From Selenomonas ruminantium AC2024 (GTDB lineage Bacteria > Bacillota > Negativicutes > Selenomonadales > Selenomonadaceae): a DNA stretch of 64,000 nucleotides. Of this stretch, positions 39,510 to 43,562 are shown piece by piece; position 1 is the first letter of the stretch, and each line of letters opens with the position of its first letter. The position numbers and the translations under genes are program-made. The DNA is taken from contig NZ_JIAC01000001.1 in assembly GCF_000687995.1 (NCBI RefSeq), positions 620,001 to 684,000 on the forward strand. The letters run 5' to 3'. Below the pieces are notes generated by a model, which saw only the letters and a program-made list of their open reading frames with translations, did not search any database and had not been told where the DNA came from.

Positions 39510-41188
39510 ATGATGTATGAACAGGAAGCTGTGGTTCACCACGAAAGCGGCATACATGCCCGCATTGCGGCCATGATTGTCCAGCGGGCAAGGGAACTCG
39601 GCGAAAAATATGCAACACCTCTGTTTTTGCGCAGTCAGCGCAGTGAACGGTTTGAGATGCGCAGCCTGATGAAGCTCGTCGCGCTCAAAATCGGCAAGGG
39701 CGATTCGGTCTTTGTATCGGCGGAAGGTGATGCCGGGCGGCAGGCGGTCTACGAAATGGTGCGCTTTTTGGAAGGCGACTTCGAACTGCGGGAGCCGGGG
39801 AAAATCCATGAGATGGATAAGCTGCTCCATGAAAATGCCTTGATGCAGGAACGCCTGCAGATGATTTTGGAGGCGGTGCAGGATGGCATCTGCGTGGTGG
39901 ACAGAACCGGAGAGATTACCTATGTGAATCCGTCTTACCTGCGCATTGTCCATAAGACGCCTGAGATGGTCATGGGGCAGAATGTCTTTAAGACTGCGCC
40001 GGATGGCAATCGCTGTGCGGTGCTCCGCACTGGCGTGGCCCGCATTGGCAGTATCAGCCGCAAGAAGGATGGCACAACGGTTGTAGCCAATGTCAATCCC
40101 ATCTTCATCAACGGTGAAATTGCGGGTGTTGTATCGGTCATCAAGGATATCACGGAACTGCAAAACCTTATGGCCAGATTGTCGCAGGTATCAGCCAGAG
40201 CAGAGTATTTGGAACAGGAACTTCTGCGCACGAAAAAGACCGCCAACGCCTTCGCCAATTATATCGGCAAAAGCGGCAAGGTCATTGACGTGCTGGCATT
40301 GGCCTCCAAGGCGGCGCAATCCTCGGCCACGGTGCTGATTCGCGGGGAAAGCGGCACCGGTAAGGAAGTCATTGCCGAGGGTATTCACTATGCCAGTGAG
40401 CGGCGCAGAGGGCCCTTTATCCGCGTGAACTGCGGAGCCATTCCCGGGACTTTGCTGGAATCGGAACTCTTTGGTCATGAGAAGGGCGCTTTCACCGGAG
40501 CGGTGAAGCGCAAGCTCGGCAAGTTTGAACTGGCTGACCACGGCACGATTTTTCTCGATGAAATCGGCGAGATGGACAAGAAGATGCAGGTCAAGCTCCT
40601 GCGGGTGCTGCAACAGAAAGAATTTGACCGCGTAGGCGGCGAGAGACCGTCCATGTGGATGTGCGGATTATCGCCGCCACCAACCGCCATTTGGAAGATA
40701 TGGTGAAGGACGGCACCTTCCGCGATGATTTGTACTACCGCCTCAATGTCATTCCCATCATCCTGCCGCCGCTTCGGGACCGCATTGATGACATTCCGCT
40801 GCTGGTGGAGCATTTTATCGAGAAGGTCAGCGTCAGTACCGGTAAGACTGTCCGCAGTATTACGCCGGAGGCTATGGATATCCTCATGCGCTACAAATGG
40901 CTGGGCAATGTGCGGGAATTGGAAAATGTCATTGAGCGGGTTATCACCCTCATGGACAGCGACACCATTACGGTTGCGGCACTTCCTTCCTACATCAAGG
41001 GCGAAGCGGCGGACAGAGAGGTGCAGCGCCTCGAAACGGAAAGCGCCGTGCTTCCCTGGGAGGAATATGAGAAGCGCATCATTGCCAAGGCGTTGAAACA
41101 GTGTGGCAGTTTCAACGCCGCCGCCAAGGAATTAAAAATTACGCACAAGACGGTGGCGGCCAAAGCCCGGAAATACGGATTGGCATAA
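39510..41188 (+). pseudogene. HPr-PAS-sigma54 activator, frameshifted
   Basis: An enhancer-binding protein. An HPr-like domain (1-95) keeps the phospho-histidine in [10 protein letters not shown] (His16), the arginine and a Ser46-like site; a PAS domain follows (about 115-210), then an AAA+ domain with Walker A GESGTGKE and GAFTGA, and a Fis-type helix-turn-helix at the end (FNAAAKELKITHKTVAAKARKYG). The reading frame breaks at 40647-40652: one G is missing (CCGTCC where CCGGTCC restores [15 protein letters not shown]). Either a real -1 frameshift inactivates it or it is a sequencing error. It lies just upstream of ptsH. Confidence 0.85.
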
Positions 41189-41254
41189 TTGGTAAAAAAT
41201 ACCATGATTGGCAAAATTTACCAGGAAAATGACGTGAGTTGGTAAATTTTACCG
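41189..41254. promoter_or_regulatory. Three upstream activator-like inverted repeats
   Basis: 16-base inverted repeats of form TTGG(T/C)AAA-TTACC(A/G) at 41189-41204, 41208-41223 and 41239-41254, centred about 120-170 bases before the sigma54 promoter, where an enhancer-binding protein would act. A half site (ATTACCAA) is at 41343-41350. Confidence 0.85.
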
Positions 41255-41364
41255 AAATGATTATTGTTAGCTGGGAACTGTAGAGGGATAAATATTATTT
41301 TTTAACATCGTTATGGGTTGCTGGCAGGGCTTTTGCGAAAAAATTACCAAGTTTTTACAAAAGT

Positions 41365-41380
41365 TGGCACGCTGTTTGCA
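41365..41380 (+). promoter_or_regulatory. Sigma54 promoter of ptsH-ptsI
   Basis: TGGCACG-N4-TTGCA (41365-41380) matches the -24/-12 consensus exactly. It lies about 95 bases before ptsH. Confidence 0.92.
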
Positions 41381-41475
41381 TTTATATAAGGCAGTTAGCA
41401 ACATTATAGTTCATAAACCGCTGCTTAGCGGTTAGGATATGTTGTGGTTTTTTTAAGAATGGAGAGGTTTTAGAA

Positions 41476-41742
41476 ATGACTCAGGAAATTGTAACGATTG
41501 AAAACAAGACTGGTATCCATGCCCGCCCGGCTTCCATCTTCGTACAGACGGCTACGAAGTTCAAGTCCAAGGTTCAGATCCAGGCTAAGGGCAAGACCGT
41601 TGACGCTAAATCCATCCTCATGATCATGAGCATGGGTCTCGTTAAGGGCACGGAAATCACCATCGTTGCAGACGGTCCGGACGAAGCAGATGCAGTTAAG
41701 GCTCTGAAAGACCTCGTTGATTCCAAGTTCGGCGAAGAATAA
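41476..41742 (+). CDS. ptsH: Phosphocarrier protein HPr
   Basis: An 88-residue HPr that carries phosphate from enzyme I to PTS permeases. His15 is in KTGIHARPAS and Ser46 in VDAKSILMIMS, so both EI- and HPr kinase-type phosphorylation are possible, as in Firmicutes. GGAGAGG precedes ATG 41476. It is driven by the sigma54 promoter and shares an operon with ptsI. Confidence 0.98.
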   Translation: MTQEIVTIENKTGIHARPASIFVQTATKFKSKVQIQAKGKTVDAKSILMIMSMGLVKGTEITIVADGPDEADAVKALKDLVDSKFGEE

Positions 41743-41849
41743 TTTACTAAATTGGAATCTTAGGAATCGCCTTCTTTCCAAGGATTGGAACTTTGGAGGA
41801 AGGCGTTTCTTGTATGTATCGTATTTACAATCAGGGGGAAAGAAATAAA

Positions 41850-43562
41850 ATGGCAGAAGCAATCAGAGGTAAAGGCGTTATTTCCGGTATCGCCATCGGT
41901 AAAATCATGCTGGCAGGTCAGAACCTGGACGGCTATCTGGTAAACTACCAGCCGGAATCCAAAGAAGTGGAGAGCAAGAAGGCTCAGGACGCTTTGACCG
42001 CCGTAGCAGAAACCCTGCGTGAAAACATCGACCGCCTGCAGAAGCAGAACATGGTTGAGCAGGCTGCAATCATGGAAGCGCATCGCATGATGGTGCAGGA
42101 CCCCATGATGGCCCAGAAAATCGAAGAAAAGCTCGAAGAAGATGCCAATGCTCCGCAGGCTGTCCTCAAAGCTGCTGAAGAACAGGCACAGATGTTCGAG
42201 ATGATGGAAGATGAATACTTCGCAGCCCGCGCAGTTGACCTCCGTGACGTAGGTAAGCGCGTAGCGAAGTACATCCTGGGCGTTAAAGAACCGGAACTGG
42301 GCGACGAAAAAGTTATCCTCTGCGGCCGTGAAATCGAGCCTTCCGTTATCGCTGGCATGCCGACCGACAAGATTGCTGGTGTTATCCTGGGCTCCGGCTC
42401 CACGACGGCTCATGCAGTTATCATTGCCAAAGCCCGTGCTATTCCGACCATTGTTGGTCTGAACAAAGAAGACCGCATCGACAAGATTGCTGACGGCGAC
42501 CATGTTATCATGGATGGCGAAGAAGGCAAGATTCTCGTGAACCCCAGCGAAGAAGAACTGGCTGGTTACAACGAAAAAATCAAGAAGCAGCAGGAACTGG
42601 CTGCTCATTACGCTCAGCTCAAAGACCTGCCCGCTGTTACGACGGACGGCGTGAAGGTTGACCTCATGGCCAACATCGGCACGCATATGGACGTTGATAA
42701 CGCCCTCAAGTATGGTGCCAAGGGCGTAGGCCTGTTCCGTTCTGAGTTCGTATTCATGGGTCGTCAGGATATCCCCAATGAAGAAGACCAGTTCAAGGCT
42801 TACAAAGAAGCTGTTGAAAAGTGCCAGGGCAACCTCTGCGTTATCCGTACCATGGATATCGGCGGTGACAAACCTCTGCCGTACCTCAACATTCCGGAAG
42901 AAGAAAACCCGTTCCTGGGCTACCGTGCAGTTCGCATCAGCTTGCAGCGCAAGGACCTCTTCCTGCCGCAGCTGAAAGCTATCCTGCGTGCCGGTGTATA
43001 CGGCAAAGTTGGTATCATGGTTCCGATGATCATCAACGTAGCAGAATTCAAGAAGGTTAAGGAATTCATCGAAGAAGCTAAGCTGGAACTGGCTCATGAG
43101 GGCAAGGCTTATGCGGAAGATGTACAGGTTGGTATCATGGTTGAGACCCCGGCTGCTGCTGTAATGACGCCGGTACTTGCCAAGTATGTAGACTTCTTCT
43201 CCATCGGCACCAACGACCTCGTTCAGTACACGCTGGCTTGCGACCGCGGCAACGCCAACATCGCTGAACTCTACAATCACTTCAACCCGGCTGTACTGCA
43301 GCTCATTCAGCGCACCATCACCAGCGCTCGTGAAAACGGCATCTGGGCCGGCATGTGCGGTGAAATGGCCAGCGACCCGAACGCTGCTGTAATCCTCATG
43401 GCTATGGGCATCAGCGAACTCTCCATGAGCGCTCCGTCCATTCCGCGTGTTAAGGAAAAAATCCGCAACATCAGCTCCACGAAGGCTAAGGAAATCCTCG
43501 CTGACGTGATGAAGATGGAAGACGGCGACGAAATCAAAGCATACCTGAGCAAGGTACTGTAA
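41850..43562 (+). CDS. ptsI: PTS enzyme I
   Basis: A 570-residue enzyme I that takes phosphate from PEP and gives it to HPr. The phosphohistidine loop reads SGSTTAHAVIIAKA, a variant of the common GGxTSHxAI form; the PEP-binding domain has FLGYRAVRISLQRKDLFLPQLKA and the catalytic region FFSIGTNDLVQYTLACDR, then GMCGEMASD. ATG 41850 is chosen by AGGGGGAAAG; earlier in-frame starts lack a site. Confidence 0.97.
   Translation: MAEAIRGKGVISGIAIGKIMLAGQNLDGYLVNYQPESKEVESKKAQDALTAVAETLRENIDRLQKQNMVEQAAIMEAHRMMVQDPMMAQKIEEKLEEDANAPQAVLKAAEEQAQMFEMMEDEYFAARAVDLRDVGKRVAKYILGVKEPELGDEKVILCGREIEPSVIAGMPTDKIAGVILGSGSTTAHAVIIAKARAIPTIVGLNKEDRIDKIADGDHVIMDGEEGKILVNPSEEELAGYNEKIKKQQELAAHYAQLKDLPAVTTDGVKVDLMANIGTHMDVDNALKYGAKGVGLFRSEFVFMGRQDIPNEEDQFKAYKEAVEKCQGNLCVIRTMDIGGDKPLPYLNIPEEENPFLGYRAVRISLQRKDLFLPQLKAILRAGVYGKVGIMVPMIINVAEFKKVKEFIEEAKLELAHEGKAYAEDVQVGIMVETPAAAVMTPVLAKYVDFFSIGTNDLVQYTLACDRGNANIAELYNHFNPAVLQLIQRTITSARENGIWAGMCGEMASDPNAAVILMAMGISELSMSAPSIPRVKEKIRNISSTKAKEILADVMKMEDGDEIKAYLSKVL

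Follow-up and report, generated by a model that had tools for sequence, protein, structure and literature searches.

What drives transcription of the ptsH–ptsI operon of Selenomonas ruminantium AC2024, when the gene directly upstream of it encodes a sigma54 activator that carries an HPr-like domain of its own? The question arises from a 64-kb stretch of the genome, referred to here as the window, in which a group of inverted repeats and a −24/−12 promoter element lie between the HPr-domain sigma54 activator gene and ptsHI, an arrangement pointed out in an earlier sequence-only reading and read directly from the sequence. The best explanation of the locus as a whole, and one in which we have considerable confidence on comparative grounds, is that positions 41189–41380 form a control region through which sigma54 and the activator would govern the ptsH–ptsI operon. 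The features discussed below are collected in Table 1.

Table 1. Features of the activator–ptsHI locus, in window coordinates
Feature	Position	Strand	Description
HPr-PAS-AAA+-HTH sigma54 activator gene	39510–41188	+	Pfam PTS-HPr, PAS, Sigma54_activat, AAA_lid_14, HTH_50
HPr-like domain with His16 (equivalent of HPr His15)	39519–39773	+	PF00381, E 1.6e-14
Approximate place of frame break, one-base length difference	40642	+	blastn against nearest relative, G011
Putative enhancer (UAS) palindrome 1	41189–41205	+	TTGGTAAAAAATACCAT, 2 mismatches to TTGGTAANNNTTACCAA
Putative enhancer (UAS) palindrome 2	41208–41224	+	TTGGCAAAATTTACCAG, 2 mismatches to TTGGTAANNNTTACCAA
Putative enhancer (UAS) palindrome 3	41239–41255	+	TTGGTAAATTTTACCGA, 1 mismatch to TTGGTAANNNTTACCAA
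Tentative fourth palindrome, weak, promoter-proximal	41334–41350	+	3 mismatches to TTGGTAANNNTTACCAA
Predicted sigma54 −24/−12 promoter element	41364–41380	+	TTGGCACGCTGTTTGCA, exact match, TTGGCAC-N5-TTGCA
Predicted transcription start	41391	+	12 bases after C of −12 GC, inferred from sigma54 consensus
ptsH (HPr, 88 aa)	41476–41742	+	PF00381, E 7.6e-32; TIGR01003 over cut-off
ptsI (enzyme I)	41850–43562	+	Pfam; TIGR01417 over cut-off; only PF05524 match in genome

Palindromes and predicted promoter in the activator–ptsH spacer

Analysis of the spacer revealed three palindromes of 17 bp with a 7-3-7 architecture, for which the consensus is TTGGTAA-N3-TTACCAA (TTGGTAANNNTTACCAA). They had been described before as three 16-base inverted repeats; the number stands, and the 17-bp form is the better description. 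The three are located some 110–175 bp upstream of the −24/−12 element, with a step of 31 bp from the second to the third, and steps of ~31–33 bp recur in other families. The window as a whole contains nine matches to the palindrome with up to three mismatches, compared with a mean of 2.52 (sd 1.63) in shuffled versions of it, and a count of nine was reached in none of 100 shuffles. Four of the nine are packed into 162 bp of the spacer. The weakest of these, the promoter-proximal copy, has better counterparts in several congeners, and its mean column identity of 0.68 is no higher than that of the rest of the spacer (0.67) in an alignment of 21 sequences.

The −24/−12 element was rightly called perfect in the sequence-only reading. 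Both the GG at −24 and the GC at −12 of the consensus TTGGCAC-N5-TTGCA are present, and TTGGCACGCTGTTTGCA, which may alternatively be written as an exact TTGGCACG-N4-TTGCA, is the sole exact match in the window. Relaxing the search to at most two mismatches gives three −24/−12 matches in the window against a chance mean of 3.07; since these looser matches are at chance level, it is the exactness of the element and its conservation that carry the weight. In the form TGGCACGNNNNTTGC (TGGCACG-N4-TTGC), the 2.83-Mb genome holds three exact matches, the present locus among them, and 97 matches with at most one mismatch, compared with 45 for a backward-read control. The stretch GGCAGTTA at 41390–41397, which covers the predicted transcription start, has 0.86–1.00 identity per column in the 21 spacers. 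A second −24/−12-like match, with one mismatch, is found at 41322–41336, 43 bp upstream of the perfect element. Its counterpart in the nearest relative, G011, is an exact TGGCACG-N4-TTGC, and the identity of its columns in the 21-spacer alignment (0.65) is not above the background of 0.67. The genome has an rpoN gene for sigma54.

Downstream, the ptsI frame extends over 41793–43562, with a probable ATG start at the position given in Table 1. The PTS inventory of the genome comprises one PF05524 (EI) match and 12 PTS_EIIC matches; with a single EI gene found, the circuit would govern the genome's only general PTS. B. subtilis possesses an HPr kinase, and the genome search for this enzyme (PF07475), which returned no match, is to be read with the finding that the B. 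subtilis control was also unmatched by the same search.

Two repeated sequences were observed elsewhere in the genome. TGGCACGTAGTTAGC occurs seven times (G000:C1 41677, 454717, 723057, 918430, 1369161, 1486011 and 2810292); it resembles the 16S rRNA 515 region, which suggests that there are seven rRNA operons. TTGGTAAATAATAGCG occurs at five places (G000:C1 246838 and 2161310–2169882), four of them within 9 kb, and may be a repeat element that has nothing to do with the enhancers.

Conservation and co-occurrence with the activator

Conservation was examined in an alignment of 21 spacers drawn from 19 of the 22 Selenomonas genomes and from two other genera of the family. The spacers L062, L064 and L065 were left out as more distant, and those of L053, L055 and L058 are absent, L055 stopping at a contig end; the genomes of L053 and L058 (G008 and G002) are covered in the ptsHI comparison as L159 and L161. 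The mean column identities of palindromes 1, 2 and 3 are 0.80, 0.86 and 0.91, and that of the promoter element is 0.90, compared with 0.67 for the rest of the spacer. The letters TTGGCA and TTGCA are invariant in all 21 spacers. The promoter is accompanied by at least one palindrome in 21 of the 22 Selenomonas genomes; in the other, G021, the contig stops after the activator.

A genome search for the same repeats, as the sequence-only reading had proposed, was run over the 22 genomes of the genus on the forward strand with at most one mismatch. It returned 52 palindromes, 41 of them at the ptsHI locus; the 11 that lie off the locus are scattered over seven genomes, and a backward-read control yields seven in all. 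At this threshold, ptsHI looks like the activator's only evident target in the genus, as judged from site matches. Two sites from a scan of the whole AC2024 genome with 0–2 mismatches were considered as candidate targets and rejected: the only exact TTGGYAAAWWWTACCR match away from the locus, at G000:C1:1431587, precedes an unrelated ORF and has near it none of the sigma54-element matches counted above for the genome, and a one-mismatch palindrome at 182401 lies inside a transporter-like gene.

Comparison of ptsHI loci with and without the activator bears more directly on who uses these sites. We collected 81 ptsH–ptsI loci, of which 60 were kept for the count and 21 were dropped, the latter consisting of 12 dha-type loci and nine genomes; in eight of these nine ptsH does not immediately follow the activator, and G291 gave only a weak partial match. 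At none of the 21 dropped loci do the two signals, sigma54 element and palindrome, occur together immediately ahead of ptsH; a sigma54-like match with one mismatch is seen at L200 and L209, and a palindrome-like match by itself at G041 and L211. Among the 60 retained, promoter and palindrome precede ptsH at all 38 loci that have the activator directly upstream (at least three genomes being counted twice) and at none of the 22 that do not, one of which, G028, shows two palindrome-like matches and no promoter. Eighteen of the 22 activator-less loci belong to the same family, and as these 18 genomes carry ptsHI with neither activator nor sites, sigma54 control is unnecessary for a PTS. When mapped onto an EI tree, the loci show five changes of state and provide four independent contrasts on well-supported (starred) branches. 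All four agree, a number too small for significance (sign test, p 0.125).

The co-occurrence and the conservation together favour the earlier proposal that the adjacent activator controls ptsHI through sigma54, and this is further backed by the occurrence of the same type of site before dha or ptsI genes in other families (see below). We consider it very probable that 41364–41380 is a sigma54 promoter and that the palindromes are its enhancers, at which the HPr-domain activator would act.

Palindromes alone do not identify the protein that binds them, and those described here might be operators of an unrelated regulator, for example a repressor of ptsHI, next to a sigma54-like element that is incidental; the weak copy at 41334–41350, beside the promoter, could act in this way. 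Such an arrangement would not be expected to give the all-or-none pairing of promoter and palindrome with an adjacent activator, nor to have this type of site track the activator to positions before dhaK or facing ptsI in other families, nor to keep the −24/−12 letters identical in every aligned spacer, and we regard it as highly improbable. Transcription of ptsHI mainly from a sigma70 promoter, with sigma54 adding little, deserves more weight and is nevertheless unlikely. Here TTGGCA would serve as a −35 element, or the promoter would lie at 41381–41410, where there is a weak sigma70-like match at 9 of 12 positions; the TATA-rich letters 41384–41389 are partly conserved (0.52–0.86 over the 21 spacers), and the relatives that lack the activator must use another promoter. 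Set against this, TTGCA at −12 is identical in all 21 spacers whereas the TATA-rich letters vary, and the three sigma70-like matches in the region, compared with 1.0 (sd 0.9) in shuffles, are a weak signal. Sigma54 and sigma70 promoters of ptsHI could also coexist.

The activator and its wider family

The AAA+ domain of the activator matches PF00158 with an E value of 9.4e-54, and the GAFTGA motif is present in the translation. PF00381 is matched by all 17 members of the activator family in alignment A2, and the profile of the HPr domain matches 33 solved HPr-type sequences. Residues G14, H16, R18, A20 and A21 of this domain are invariant in 20 activator sequences from several families. For His16, the 20 of 20 comes from a biased sample because the selection patterns included the histidine place: the scan that gave the 80 loci described below used a peptide pattern containing the histidine, and the remaining activator loci were required to have His or Asn there, a selection failed by two distant paralogs (L138 and L139) and by three loci that have no usable activator (L131, L132 and L133). 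The place of Ser46 is occupied by Ser in the window activator and by Ser, Ala, Gly or Asn across the family. Activators of the dha type have two PAS copies, as judged from the alignment.

The first 130 residues of the activator were matched in 66 of 300 genomes sampled from the class (E ≤ 1e-8), and 36 activator loci from the sampled genomes had enough downstream sequence to score. A sigma54 element with at most one mismatch is present at 34 of these, compared with 0.010 per single-base-shuffled region, and the palindrome TTGRTA-N5-TAYCAA with at most two mismatches at 30, compared with 0.092. Both signals are present at 29 of the 36 loci, while seven are without one or both at the thresholds used. 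Within this set, sites of this type come after the activator both where ptsH is next and where dhaK is.

A scan with a peptide pattern gave 111 loci, of which the best 80 were kept and assigned to operon types by tblastn; they include members from Selenomonas, Mitsuokella, Propionispira, Pelosinus, Sporomusa, Heliobacterium, Desulfosporosinus, Geosporobacter and Clostridium. The strict sigma54 pattern is at the expected place in 71 of these best 80 of 111 loci and absent from nine. The activator precedes ptsHI at 35 of the 80, with the strict pattern at 31 and a one-mismatch form in its stead at L168, L170, L172 and L179. At 30, it precedes dha genes, all except L186 having the strict pattern (29 loci); 16 of the 30 contain ptsH and ptsI, 12 contain ptsH only and two have neither in the stretch. 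At 11 Clostridium loci (L210, L212–L216, L218–L220, L223 and L224) ptsI is divergent from the activator, a sigma54 element points toward ptsI in every case, and each of the 11 spacers contains a pair of TTGATA-N5-TATCAA palindromes, 28–32 bp apart. The other four of the best 80 are incomplete or differently arranged. Genes of the phosphoryl chain (ptsI, ptsH or dhaM) adjoin the activator at 76 of these best 80 of 111 loci. The steps between palindromes at ptsHI-type loci comprise 24 of 31–33 bp, 23 of 18–20 bp and 11 of 51–52 bp, and nine of the 11 steps at dha-type loci (17 loci) are of 31–33 bp. At the Pelosinus-type loci L107, L108 and L137, the activator is followed by dhaKLM and an HPr gene with no EI in the stretch; two of the Pelosinus-type genomes, G041 and G059, have a separate, distant EI elsewhere.

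In the AC2024 assembly itself, the activator is split between two frames, 39510–40706 (398 codons) and 40655–41188, with the HTH_50 and HTH_8 matches confined to the second. The sequence-only reading had named an HPr-sigma54 activator but overlooked the break. In all 21 other genomes of the genus, the activator is one open frame of 566–588 aa. The split is explained by a one-base length difference from G011, and is possibly a sequencing or assembly error in this single-contig assembly. It is also possible that AC2024 is a natural activator mutant near window position 40642: the gap list from the comparison with G011, inspected by eye, showed no further coding difference of a single isolated base where the sequences aligned, which is compatible with a real mutation. 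With the frame broken, the switch of this strain may no longer work, barring a sequencing error. The chance that the activator of AC2024 is a pseudogene and its promoter region a relic seems to us nearly even, the one-base difference and the intact frames of the 21 congeners being offset by sites and a promoter that are preserved in AC2024, by the finding of only one EI, and by the scope for error in the assembly. The pseudogene reading, which concerns AC2024, leaves the reading for the genus untouched.

Possible mechanism, precedents and operon history

In the mechanism that we favour for the genus, RNA polymerase with sigma54 would sit at TTGGCAC-N5-TTGCA before ptsH, and the activator would bind the three palindromes upstream and, once bound, loop over to open the ptsHI promoter by ATP hydrolysis. 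More speculatively, enzyme I would phosphorylate the histidine of the activator's HPr domain, and this phosphorylatable domain would let the activator read the amount of free phospho-EI. The sign of the response is a guess. We judge it more likely that the unphosphorylated activator, expected under heavy sugar demand or when there is too little EI, is the active form, as the reverse would give a runaway positive loop; the activator would then act as a negative-feedback supply regulator of ptsHI. The invariance of H16, R18, A20 and A21, together with the variability at the Ser46 place, points to phosphorylation by EI as the signal, and the EI, HPr or DhaM genes beside the activator at 76 of the 80 loci make feedback from EI supply the most economical idea. 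Feedback through the conserved histidine is plausible on this evidence. The PAS domain may carry a second signal or bind something else entirely.

It could instead be that the HPr-like domain is a fixed docking or ligand domain that is not phosphorylated by EI, with the PAS domain as the sensor and no PTS feedback. The Pro that follows HAR in the HPr of ptsH is replaced by Ile or Val in the activator domain, a point in favour of such a role; the invariance of His, Arg and the flanking Gly and Ala across 20 sequences of several families, and the phosphoryl-chain neighbours at 76 of the best 80 of 111 loci, argue for a phosphorylatable domain, and we consider fixed docking somewhat unlikely. Returning to feedback through the histidine, a broader scheme would see the family as a Firmicutes-wide homeostat of PTS supply, in which the HPr domain of the activator competes with HPr for phospho-EI and its phosphorylation sets sigma54 transcription. 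The scheme would take in the three outputs of the activator layout (dhaKLM–ptsHI, divergent ptsI and ptsHI alone) and also a loss of dhaKLM in Selenomonadaceae, by which the switch of a DHA-kinase operon would have become the control of the sole general PTS. We put this forward tentatively, its probability being somewhat below even.

The trees that bear on this history come from quick searches, have long branches and gave warnings, and the clade statements drawn from them are tentative. In the EI tree, a starred branch (97) unites the EIs of the Selenomonads with those encoded in dha operons of Sporomusa, Desulfosporosinus and Anaerospora, apart from the other EIs of Pelosinus-type and related genomes. 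Six dha-operon EIs from Clostridia (Roseburia, Fusibacter, Petrocella and related genomes) do not belong to this branch. In the activator tree, with the root placed on Clostridium, activators of the ptsHI-only type from Selenomonadaceae and Massilibacillus make up a single starred group within the dha type, and the ptsHI-only type of Propionispora is separate. The Selenomonas operon probably arose, as a tentative deduction from these trees, from a sigma54-controlled dhaKLM–ptsH–ptsI operon by loss of dhaKLM. Such a loss, perhaps twice, is the simplest reading, and it depends on the Clostridium root and on the quick trees. The AC2024 genome contains two Dak1 genes, neither of which adjoins the activator; the first is preceded by an apparent universal-stress-protein gene, and the second, as judged from translations, is followed by a dhaL-like gene and preceded by a cobalamin-type gene.

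Activators of the LevR/CelR type are sigma54 activators with PRD domains that are controlled through PTS phosphorylation and serve sugar-specific operons, whereas the Selenomonas activator carries HPr itself in place of a PRD, and its predicted target is the general PTS. A closer precedent is DhaQ, a sigma54 enhancer-binding protein (EBP) of Clostridiales with dhaKLM and ptsI as predicted targets (Nie et al. 2019, PMC6615313). The same paper reports PTS-HPr domains among Clostridiales EBPs, and its text on Acetobacterium, Clostridium and Geosporobacter describes a regulon in which a sigma54 EBP is predicted for dhaKLM and ptsI. In our data, the HPr-domain EBPs of Clostridium and Geosporobacter are likewise encoded opposite ptsI or ahead of dha genes, a sigma54 element being present, and we infer that DhaQ corresponds to this HPr-domain family. 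The family as a whole has dha and ptsI neighbours, whereas the window member precedes ptsHI only: the Selenomonas-type loci have no dha gene between activator and ptsH, and their target would be ptsH together with ptsI. Sigma54 activators with a fused HPr signal domain were noted in Clostridia by Francke et al. (2011, PMC3162934), who cite Reizer et al. 1999 for such proteins; the excerpted text, in contrast to the present case, names neither target genes nor a binding site for them and draws no connection with ptsHI. A further parallel is dhaR–dhaKLM of E. coli, where an activator adjoins a DHA kinase operon. The DhaR and PrdR NCBIfam models match an intact congener activator with 270 of 551 bits and 470 of 795 bits, respectively, both below the curated cut-off, and DhaR is described as lacking a working GAFTGA and as sigma70-dependent (Francke et al. 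2011, PMC3162934). The dhaKLM genes of C. beijerinckii are predicted to be sigma54-controlled (PMC6510779). A link between sigma54 and ptsHI has an in vitro precedent, since the E. coli RpoN holoenzyme bound the cysK–ptsH spacer in genomic SELEX (PMC8743547).

The sequence-only reading had presented control of HPr and EI by sigma54 and an HPr-domain regulator as unusual; the control is supported by the comparisons, but in view of DhaQ and the HPr-domain EBPs, as the excerpts of these papers present them, it is not wholly without precedent. In those excerpts neither Nie et al. (2019) nor Francke et al. (2011) covers Negativicutes or a ptsHI operon, and none of the open-licence PMC titles listed deals with control of ptsHI by sigma54 in Selenomonas or other Negativicutes. 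Measured against these sources, HPr-domain EBPs are already known and the ptsHI output in Selenomonas is new.

If the circuit works as proposed, the level of the general PTS in these rumen bacteria would be regulated, and would not be a housekeeping matter, and the activator could sample enzyme I directly by means of its own copy of HPr. The finding would suggest a purpose for the HPr-domain sigma54 activators, and would offer a traceable case in which the output of a regulator was altered by gene loss while its binding sites were kept. It would also open sugar uptake in this major rumen genus to simple genetic manipulation.
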